A stretch of DNA of 64,000 bases. Source: Selenomonas sp. F0473. GTDB lineage: Bacteria; Bacillota; Negativicutes; Selenomonadales; Selenomonadaceae. Under the pieces are notes generated by a model that was given only the letters and a program-made list of their open reading frames with translations, made no database searches and was not told the DNA's origin. Both the position numbers and the translations under genes were made by a program. This document shows, in pieces, positions 48,932-51,621 of this stretch; within the stretch, counting starts at the first letter, position 1, and each line of letters opens with the position of its first letter. The DNA lies in NCBI RefSeq assembly GCF_000315545.1, contig NZ_JH992902.1, forward strand, positions 717,280 to 781,279. Reading direction: 5' to 3'.

Positions 48932-50578
48932 ATGCGGGAACTCCTGCGCATTGACCACCTGACAGCAGGCTACGGCGGCAGCTCCGTGATCCGGGACATT
49001 CATCTATCCCTGTGCCCGGGCGAAGTGCTCGGCATCGTCGGTGAGAGCGGCAGCGGAAAATCGACGCTCTTAAAGGCCGTCGCACAGATCCGCGGGCTCG
49101 CTGCGGATATCCTTGCGGGCAGCGTACACTTTGCGGGGCGCGATATGGCCGCGGTCTCTGTGGCGGACAAGCGCCGCCTGCACGGGGAAGAACTCGCGAT
49201 GGTGTTCCAATATGCGAGCGCCTCGCTGAACCCGTCGCGGACGATCGGCGCGCAGCTCAAAGAAGCTGTGCGGGCACATGAAAAGCGCCCGCCCGACGAG
49301 ATTCGTGCGCGCGCGGAGGACGTGTTCGGCGGCATGGGGTTTTCGGATGTGGACCGCATTCTTGCGGCGTATCCGTTCGAGCTCTCGGGCGGCATGGCGC
49401 AGCGTGCGGCAATCGCGCTCGCCGTGATCCTGCGCCCGCAGCTCCTCCTTGCCGACGAACCCACGTCGGCGCTCGACGCAACGATTCAGCTACAGGTGCT
49501 GGACGAACTGCGTGCGCTGAAGGACCGGACGGGAACGGCCATCCTCCTCATCACCCACAACATCGGCGTCGTGCGGCACATCGCCGACCGCGTCGCCGTC
49601 ATGTCCGGCGGCTGCATCGTCGAACAGGGCAATGTAGCGGAGGTCCTCGGAAACCCACAGCATCCATATACGCGGGAACTGCTTGCGGCCGTACCGAAGA
49701 TGTCCGCGACACATACGGACTGCGACCGCAAAGATCATACAGAGAAAAATACCGTCCCTATAGCCTCCCCCGTCCGAGCGGGGGAGGGGGGCCGCGTAAG
49801 CGGTGGAAGGGGCGCCCATTTCGAAGATCTCCTGCGCTTTGACAACGTCTCCATGCACTTTGACGATGCGGCGGGACGTGTGCAGGCAATCAATGGCATC
49901 TCCTTTTCCCTCGGGCGGCGCGAACTCCTCGGCATCGTCGGCGAAAGCGGCAGCGGTAAATCCACCGTTGCAAAGCTCCTCACGGGGCTGCATCTGCCGA
50001 CGGGCGGGAATATCTTCCTCGACGGCAGGGACATCACGCGCACAAACAGAAAGGAGCGGCGCGCGCTCTACACGCGCATCCAGATGGTGTTTCAGGACGC
50101 GCCCGGCTCGTTCAACCCGCGCCGCACCATCGGTGCGATGATCGGCGAGACCATCTGCCGCCTGTGCGCGCCTGATGGCCGCCGGACGGAGGAACGCGTC
50201 GCCGCCCTCCTCTCTGAGGTGGGGCTGCCCGCATCCTATGCGCGTCGCTACCCGCACGAGATGAGCGGGGGCGAATGCCAGCGTGCCGCGATTGCGCGCG
50301 CAATGGCGGTGCATCCCGATATTCTCCTGTGCGATGAGGCGACCTCGGCGCTCGACGTCTCCGTGCAGGCAAAAATCGTGTCCCTCCTGCTCCATCTGCA
50401 GAAAGAACACGGCATGAGCCTCATCTTCATCTCGCACGATTTGCCCCTCGTAAGTTCTATCGCGGAACGCGTGCTCATCATGCGCGCGGGGCGCATCGTC
50501 GAGGAGGGCACGCCGCGCCGCGTCCTCACGAATCCCACGGACGAATACACCAAAAATCTCCTGCGCGCGGCGCTGTGA
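48932..50578 (+). CDS. Fused dual ABC ATPase (NikD-NikE/DppD-DppF type)
   Basis: A 548-residue protein carrying two complete ABC ATPase domains that are usually separate subunits. Domain 1 (about 1-255): Walker A GESGSGKSTLLKAV, signature LSGGMAQRAAIALAV, Walker B LLLADEPTSALD. Domain 2 (about 300-548): GESGSGKSTVAKLL, MSGGECQRAAIARAM, DILLCDEATSALD. The linker (about 262-300) includes the stretch IASPVRAGEGGRVSGGRGAH, encoded by a palindromic repeat carried in frame (49759-49817). The start at 48932 (MRELLRID) follows GAGGAG/GAGGG; the frame's TTG at 48896 overlaps the nikA stop. It would energise the two upstream permeases. Confidence 0.9.
   Translation: MRELLRIDHLTAGYGGSSVIRDIHLSLCPGEVLGIVGESGSGKSTLLKAVAQIRGLAADILAGSVHFAGRDMAAVSVADKRRLHGEELAMVFQYASASLNPSRTIGAQLKEAVRAHEKRPPDEIRARAEDVFGGMGFSDVDRILAAYPFELSGGMAQRAAIALAVILRPQLLLADEPTSALDATIQLQVLDELRALKDRTGTAILLITHNIGVVRHIADRVAVMSGGCIVEQGNVAEVLGNPQHPYTRELLAAVPKMSATHTDCDRKDHTEKNTVPIASPVRAGEGGRVSGGRGAHFEDLLRFDNVSMHFDDAAGRVQAINGISFSLGRRELLGIVGESGSGKSTVAKLLTGLHLPTGGNIFLDGRDITRTNRKERRALYTRIQMVFQDAPGSFNPRRTIGAMIGETICRLCAPDGRRTEERVAALLSEVGLPASYARRYPHEMSGGECQRAAIARAMAVHPDILLCDEATSALDVSVQAKIVSLLLHLQKEHGMSLIFISHDLPLVSSIAERVLIMRAGRIVEEGTPRRVLTNPTDEYTKNLLRAAL
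49759..49817. repeat. Palindromic repeat element inside the fused ATPase gene
   Basis: The stretch holds CCTCCCCCG-TCCGAG-CGGGGGAGG (perfect 9-bp stem, 49764-49787), a second small stem CCGC-GTAA-GCGG (49792-49803), then GGAAGGGGCGCC. Its composition (G/C runs) is unlike the flanking codons, and it resembles short interspersed palindromic elements common between genes in Negativicutes and other Firmicutes. Here it is inside a coding frame without breaking it. Confidence 0.6.
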
Positions 50579-50590
50579 CGCCGCGGCATT

Positions 50591-50640
50591 ATAAAGACAG
50601 CCCTACATACACTGAAACCGTATGCGGGGCTGTCTTTATT
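50591..50640 (+). terminator. Terminator of the nickel/peptide ABC operon
   Basis: ATAAAGACAGCCC...GGGCTGTCTTTAT, a 13-bp outer stem extended by CATA/TATG, with a T-rich 3' side, just after the ATPase stop. Confidence 0.85.
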
Positions 50641-50720
50641 TTATGGTATGAATGCAACTATTCTCTCAGCGTGAGAAAAATTTCAAGATATGCGCACATG
50701 GTAGAATTGCCGGATAGTAA

Positions 50721-50844
50721 ATGAGGCGTCAGCGCTAATGCATCGCTGGGAATGAGGAGAATGCGAGCGAAGGCGTAGATGAAACCTACGTCGAGCGACG
50801 CATTCGACGATATGACGAAGCTAGGCGCAGCGATCACGCTTCAT
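50721..50844. repeat. Nested inverted-repeat element (structured RNA or mobile repeat)
   Basis: Non-coding, about 124 bases. Outer stem ATGAGGCGT (50721-50729) with ACGCTTCAT (50836-50844); next ATCGCTG (50742-50748) with CAGCGAT (50828-50834); inner GAATGCG (50759-50765) with CGCATTC (50799-50805); apical CGTAG (50774-50778) with CTACG (50786-50790). All arms nest in order, giving one long branched hairpin. It lies between a terminator and the 3' end of a convergent gene. No known RNA family was recognised. Confidence 0.6.
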
Positions 50845-50847
50845 GCC

Positions 50848-51621
50848 TTATCCGCCGACCCAATAGAAGATAATATGCGTCCCATCCTCTGATATGCCAA
50901 TGATATTGGCGCGCGGACGACTCGGATCGTCGCCGATATCCCAAACGTAAAAAACGAATTTTTCCTTCAATACGCCCAACTTCGCAGGATGGGGCACATA
51001 ATCGATAAACAGGCGCTGCCACAGAGGAAGCGCCTTGAACCGCGGCACAGCCGCCGCTTCGTCCACACGAATCTCGGGGACGCCGATCACATTGTTGATG
51101 CGGGAACTCCTCGTGCGCATCTCCGCGCGTTCCCGCGCCATCGTATCATACGGACGGATATTTTCTTTTGCATCACGATAGGAAAGATACGCCTCGTCCT
51201 CCCCGGGGCCGAAGGCGATCTTGCTCCACACCTGCACATCGTAAGCGCTCTCCGGGATCTCTTTTGGGAAAAAAGCCCGCCGCACGCGCGTATAATTTTC
51301 CCTGCCGTTCGGCGAAAAATCAGGATAGATAAAAAACTCAATAATAATAAACGCAACCGTCACGACGACCGTAAAAAAGGGAAATCCCACACTCCATAAT
51401 GTCTGTCCCCATCCCCTACACCGCCGCACAGCAAGGTAGGCCGATACGGTACAGAGCGCCATGAGCCGGCTAACGGAGACCGCGCCCCATGTGCTCAGGA
51501 GCAGGACACACCCCCACCCCAGCAAAAATAAGACAGCCGGTATGTTGAACGCGCGCAGGTCGCCCCAAAGTATGTGAAGTGCGCGCCCAAATCCCCGCAC
51601 AAGTCGTTTTGTCCGCATCAT
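50848..51621 (-). CDS. Hypothetical membrane protein (257 aa)
   Basis: A 257-residue protein of unrecognised family. The N-terminal third has three hydrophobic segments (about 24-42, 44-63, 75-97); the remainder is hydrophilic with conserved-looking aromatic stretches (FVFYVWDIGDDPSRPRANII and GISEDGTHIIFYWVGG at the end). The latter suggest a soluble beta-rich domain that would face one side of the membrane. AAGGGA precedes the ATG. It is a single gene with an AT-rich upstream region, converging on the ABC operon. No function is proposed. Confidence 0.65.
   Translation of the reverse strand: MMRTKRLVRGFGRALHILWGDLRAFNIPAVLFLLGWGCVLLLSTWGAVSVSRLMALCTVSAYLAVRRCRGWGQTLWSVGFPFFTVVVTVAFIIIEFFIYPDFSPNGRENYTRVRRAFFPKEIPESAYDVQVWSKIAFGPGEDEAYLSYRDAKENIRPYDTMARERAEMRTRSSRINNVIGVPEIRVDEAAAVPRFKALPLWQRLFIDYVPHPAKLGVLKEKFVFYVWDIGDDPSRPRANIIGISEDGTHIIFYWVGG

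Follow-up and report, generated by a model that had tools for sequence, protein, structure and literature searches.

What is the palindromic sequence that lies between two convergent genes at 50721-50844 of the window, by which we mean the whole 64,000-nucleotide stretch of Selenomonas sp. F0473 DNA analysed here? A sequence-only reading of the locus described nested inverted-repeat arms in this gap, held such nesting to be unlikely by chance, and suggested that it is a small structured RNA, a REP/MITE-like mobile element or a signal for 3' processing of the two convergent transcripts. The data presented below give good support to a structured, partly mobile repeat superfamily that is widespread in the class and present also outside it. 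The locus itself holds one copy of a dispersed, structure-conserved repeat of approximately 133 bp, for which work as a transcript boundary is, tentatively, the best explanation. A repeat with the looks of a REP or a MITE thus shares its conserved, strongly covarying fold with elements found throughout a bacterial class in the operons of stable RNAs. It is matched by no Rfam model, and genome annotation would gain a family.

The element in the window

At minimum energy, RNA of the + strand of 50721-50844 folds into a single long rod (-50.4 kcal/mol, z -4.01), which none of 200 dinucleotide shuffles equalled. The fold of the minus-strand RNA is less remarkable (z -0.97), and with DNA folding parameters the + strand is unremarkable (z -0.64). 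The nested arms described earlier are indeed present: three of the arm pairs belong to the family structure (Table 1), and the fourth competes with it. We take this remaining arm of 5 bp to be CGCTG/CAGCG, at about 50744-50748/50828-50832, a competing pairing of the window copy; the fold and the family pair approximately 50745-50747 with 50819-50821. The family model covers 50716-50848 and the outer arms extend imperfectly to 50711-50854, making the element slightly longer than the stretch first delimited. All six modelled pairs of the middle helix vary on both sides among the copies, and the apical helix is the most conserved part of the superfamily. The self match of the window copy to the covariance model R1, which was built from 33 copies, lies at G000:C1:767995-768127 in contig coordinates of the own genome (100%).

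Table 1. Features of the element and its neighbours in window coordinates
Feature	Position	Strand	Description and basis
Repeat element	50716..50848	+	matches family model R1 over its full length (positions 1-133) with 130.3 bits, E 4.5e-39
Outer stem, 5' arm	50721..50729	+	pairs with 50836-50844; fold and covarying outer-helix pairs
Middle helix, 5' arm	50759..50765	+	pairs with 50799-50805; fold
Apical helix, 5' arm GGCGTAG	50772..50778	+	pairs with 50786-50792; fold
Apical loop	50779-50785	+	fold
Apical helix, 3' arm CTACGTC	50786..50792	+	fold and covariation
Middle helix, 3' arm	50799..50805	+	fold and covariation
Outer stem, 3' arm	50836..50844	+	abuts end of the convergent gene; fold and covariation
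5'-side neighbour gene, 560 aa	48896..50578	+	convergent with the 257-aa gene; ORF list
Neighbour gene, 257 aa	50848..51621	-	membrane-like; stop codon abuts the 3' end of the element; ORF list

The 560-aa neighbour carries two ABC-transporter ATPase domains (PF00005, two stretches), and a Pfam search of the 257-aa protein returned no family. The stop of the 257-aa gene is in an unchanged position in Selenomonas artemidis, and at the orthologous locus of that species (corresponding to window 50500-51000) the element is reduced to its 3' arm, roughly the final 35 bases, after the same stop. Some species of the genus retain the 257-aa gene beside the same ABC transporter. A terminator-like hairpin (AAAGACAGCCC...GGGGCTGTCTTTATTTT, 50592-50640), retained in S. 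artemidis, lies between the ABC-transporter gene and the element.

Copies in Selenomonas genomes

The sequence-only reading had proposed to look for copies in this and related genomes and named a unique sequence free of compensatory changes as the finding that would speak against it. The sequence is far from unique. A blastn search with a 171-base query matched 41 places in the own genome (2.07 Mb), and the search with R1 raised this to approximately 60 near-full-length copies of a repeat of about 133 bp, followed by a tail of fragments. S. artemidis DSM 19719 has 74 R1 matches, representing about 70 copies, and the remaining species of the genus have zero to two matches each by the same model. 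Tandem pairs are common, and a full copy may also be preceded by the 3' arm of another copy. Remnants of the 3' arm like the one at the orthologous S. artemidis locus precede many full copies. An end profile of 126 copies gave the conserved ends CCGYAACCTRAG and GTCACGYCT.

A plasmid or phage origin was considered and rejected, the plasmid and phage collections searched having yielded no match. Four pattern matches were found in viral contigs, two of them having a weak R1 score (16.5 bits, E 0.015), the others none.

Covariation and structural constraint

In a plain MAFFT alignment of the copies, 26 of the 39 pairs vary on both sides. Two-sided changes amount to 153 cells; shuffles give 41.9, and sliding one side of the alignment gives 12-26. 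The structure was drawn from the aligned sequences themselves with RNAalifold as a guide, and these controls therefore weigh more than the raw covariation count. With model-fitted alignments, 131 distinct copies, nearly all from two species, gave 576 two-sided cells vs 165 in the control, and distant copies gave 283 vs 82, with 34 of the 39 pairs varying. Covariation thus exceeds both the shuffled and the slid controls, and the structured repeat behind the earlier suggestion of a small structured RNA is directly supported. Chance folding of 50721-50844 is ruled out by the shuffles, the other copies and their covariation, as the earlier remark on nesting had anticipated.

The constraint is not limited to canonical pairs. 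Several unpaired positions are invariant across copies, and in the internal motif GGAA/TGAC the A-G opposition switches jointly to C-A (GGCA/TAAC), both in Selenomonas and in distant genera. Judging from these sequences, we read this opposition as a putative constrained non-canonical pair. RNA of the + strand is the more stable one in all 28 distant copies and in 103 of the 127 Selenomonas copies, the minus-strand RNA being likewise a strong hairpin (mean z -3.7). Among the pairing exceptions of the dispersed Selenomonas copies, G-U is barely more frequent than A-C (118 to 95), and this small excess fits poorly with selection at the RNA level.

The own genome and S. artemidis have 39 element pairs with aligned flanks, of which 37 entered the shared-site test; two from an rRNA operon looked mismatched and were left out, and some of the 37 are upstream members of tandem arrays with a flank that is partly another element. 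Double changes that keep a pair numbered 154, twice the mean of 77 under the null (at most 94 in 200 draws). Single changes that break a pair numbered 45 vs 143 in the null, i.e., about a third. Identity averages 75% for elements at shared sites and 71% for paralogues, and just 4 of the 39 have their true partner as best match. Identity so close to that of paralogues points to either fast turnover within the structural constraint or replacement from other copies, two readings that these data do not separate.

Placement at the ends of protein genes

The copies are placed in a fixed orientation relative to genes, as counted with our own codon-score gene calls rather than an annotation. The stop of a gene on the opposite strand lies at the 3' end of the element in 41 of the 50 terminal copies of the own genome and in 43 of the 53 of S. 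artemidis (~81%). At the 5' end the same placement is seen in 2/50 and 1/53 copies, respectively (2-4%), and in random windows of the same loci in 3-4%. The distances from stop to element fall into few classes, which fit either a stop supplied by the element's own end (TRAGGCGTGA, minus strand) or a native stop that was kept; in most of the genes compared by eye, the element-free species have the native stop at the same place. The idea of a processing element for the two convergent transcripts proves too narrow, since most copies touch one gene end only.

Replication strand was tried as an explanation of this orientation. Near dnaA (1.355 Mb) the copies indeed change strand, but the exceptions track the neighbouring gene, and this cause was rejected.

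Placement in tRNA and rRNA operons

The dispersed Selenomonas copies are antisense to the gene that they touch, unlike the copies in stable-RNA operons. In other genomes the element occupies the 16S-23S spacer ahead of tRNA-Ile or tRNA-Ala, or lies a short way upstream of 23S, or separates tRNA genes. Every copy embedded in a tRNA or rRNA operon is in the sense orientation; the four neighbours counted on the opposite strand are single tRNAs at a greater distance. The 3' end of the operon copies is typically 1-13 nt before the tRNA or approximately 30 nt before 23S. The own genome has such copies too, in an rRNA operon (L114:1503-2235, L130:6113-6534), where they precede tRNA-Ala and tRNA-Ile, with a weak match before 23S. 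A second locus near 30 kb of the own genome is similar and partly masked. In some distant genomes, copies precede rplU-like and hisA-like genes, named by eye from their translated starts. These placements provide natural replicates in number of a strong hairpin located directly at a stop codon or immediately ahead of a tRNA.

Breadth and mobility of the superfamily

A broader model, R2, has matches at E<=1e-6 in 134 of 300 genomes of the class, representing 49 of 97 genera, and in 37 of 299 genomes drawn from the phylum. The E-values of R2 are rough owing to a short calibration, yet the aligned members share core sequence as well, and its copy numbers are to be read as "at least", because at most 11 candidates per genome were scored. 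Members of the superfamily were also seen in metagenome-assembled genomes, at L204:7002-7136 in one labelled Oscillospiraceae, where R1 scores weakly and R2 gives 50.8 bits, and at L206:98-206 in one labelled Acidaminococcaceae.

In two relatives, G153 and G015, there are groups of almost identical copies that have terminal inverted repeats and carry TA at either end, from which it follows that some members have moved recently. An IS5-type transposase gene (DDE_Tnp_1; L263:1659-2657) of S. artemidis is located between G153-like ends, AAGGAAACGCTGATAAA. Such ends number 36 in the genome G001 and 138 in G153, and there are none in the own genome. Window-type copies have the core in common with the G153 and G015 members and do not show the G153-type ends. 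The end profile of these old copies gives no clear terminal inverted repeats or target-site duplication, and no partner transposase was found for them.

Comparison with known families

The window has no match to an Rfam family, and at the element none appeared even below the gathering threshold in five loci, in agreement with the earlier remark that no known RNA family was recognised. No description of the element was found in the open-access papers searched; it may be one of the anonymous entries among the thousands of unnamed motifs of PMC8040213.

REPs, the GTAG-/CGTC-tagged repeats associated with RAYT, resemble the element in being dispersed extragenic palindromes close to stop codons and patchy between species. 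Extragenic copies of the element are many, some of them at most 15 nt from a stop codon, and a share of E. coli REPs lies within 15 nt of stop codons as well (PMC12306157). However, REPs measure 20-40 bp (PMC3733652), and the element, with its approximately 133 bp and internal mismatches, is above that size. Its conserved ends, CCGYAACCTRAG and GTCACGYCT, are not the tags GTAG/CGTC. A RAYT-driven REP is not supported, the PF01797 matches of the own genome being of the IS200-type Y1 kind only, with no RAYT among them. The proposal of a REP/MITE-like mobile element therefore stands for a MITE-like repeat, which is directly supported, and falls for a REP in the strict sense on account of size, tags and RAYT. 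The own genome has seven full copies of the IS200-type Y1 transposase (L031-L037; 161-168 aa; PF01797) and one masked copy with the same start.

Among MITEs of the IS5 and IS630 types, the likeness is with the G153 and G015 members, with their terminal inverted repeats and TA at both ends; window-type copies differ in having the core without these ends. The ERIC repeats of enterobacteria are imperfect palindromes of similar length in transcribed intergenic places, and the element is like them in length and palindromic form and probably also in its transcribed surroundings. An ERIC homologue was nevertheless rejected, as the consensus found no match in 20,395 E. coli records (distant blastn sensitivity, E up to 1). 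BOX, RUP and NEMIS are short interspersed hairpins, some of them in transcripts and some processed by RNase III. The likeness to these is one of manner, and the element differs from them in that many genera have its core in the spacers of their tRNA and rRNA operons.

Possible function and rival explanations

A function as an RNA boundary or processing element is possible, and we put it forward with reserve. In its RNA form, the + strand would be a long rod with a conserved non-canonical core, which may mark boundaries within transcripts and so lead to the separation or trimming of adjacent RNAs. The rod would most likely be recognised or cut by a double-strand ribonuclease, or it would shield against exonucleases; in the artemidis lineage, copies may have moved to gene ends and then been kept. 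A rod-shaped RNA marking the boundaries between RNAs, or cleaved at them, agrees with the sense copies of stable-RNA operons and with the strand bias. The copies at gene ends, antisense and with little G-U excess, fit poorly with a purely RNA role, and matched pairs could also be kept by correction of palindromes during replication or by gene conversion. That elements at shared sites barely exceed paralogues in identity also counts against the boundary reading. On a wider scale, a still undescribed rod-RNA family of the phylum may signal boundaries or processing sites in operons for tRNA, rRNA and proteins; transposable elements would have taken it up and brought it to dozens of gene ends in some lineages, its fold being kept there by selection. 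This is likewise a guarded suggestion.

Self-correction of palindromes in a selfish element is a serious rival. A selfish MITE family without host function, in which the hairpin serves transposition and template switching or exchange between copies restores the arms, seems to us rather unlikely, even though it would account for much: the near-identical copies of G153 and G015 with their terminal inverted repeats and TA ends, the IS5-type DDE transposase gene between similar ends in S. artemidis, the patchy copy number within the genus, the small G-U excess, and the tandem copies and 3' remnants. Simple correction of the arms, however, would erase the internal mismatches, which are invariant. 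The fixed orientation at stop codons (41/50 and 43/53), the sense placement in tRNA and rRNA operons, and the failure of window-type copies to show G153-type ends also argue against it. Compensatory change in such repeats is thereby made testable as either RNA function or palindrome self-correction.

The remaining explanations account for less. An attenuator of translation, in which the minus-strand hairpin slows terminating ribosomes and cuts the output of the abutting gene as in E. coli REPs, is improbable. That most terminal copies are a few nucleotides from the stop codon would suit it, as would the strength of the minus-strand hairpin (mean z -3.7) and the E. coli precedent of REPs within 15 nt of the stop codon (PMC12306157), but a plain hairpin needs no fixed orientation, the + strand gives the more stable RNA, and the sense copies of tRNA and rRNA operons are left unexplained. 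The strong hairpin between convergent genes invites comparison with an intrinsic terminator of both, which is very improbable: neither strand has a T-run after the outer stem, a scan gave one weak site in the apical part of the minus strand vs 0.6 expected by chance, and the separate terminator-like hairpin at approximately 50592-50640 persists in S. artemidis, with little of the element left there. Least probable of all is an attC-like site for an integron-type recombinase acting on folded single-stranded DNA. A fold conserved above sequence, a fixed orientation after stop codons and tandem pairs are what such sites would lead one to expect, but the copies are dispersed and do not form a cassette array, and the ends of the 126 profiled copies (CCGYAACCTRAGTGAC ... 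GTCACGYCT) lack the consensus end boxes of attC.

The copies of the own genome lie mainly on that side of the chromosome which holds the origin. A region of approximately 0.55 Mb (G000:C1:30242-578270) is free of full-length copies, dnaA being located at 1.355 Mb.
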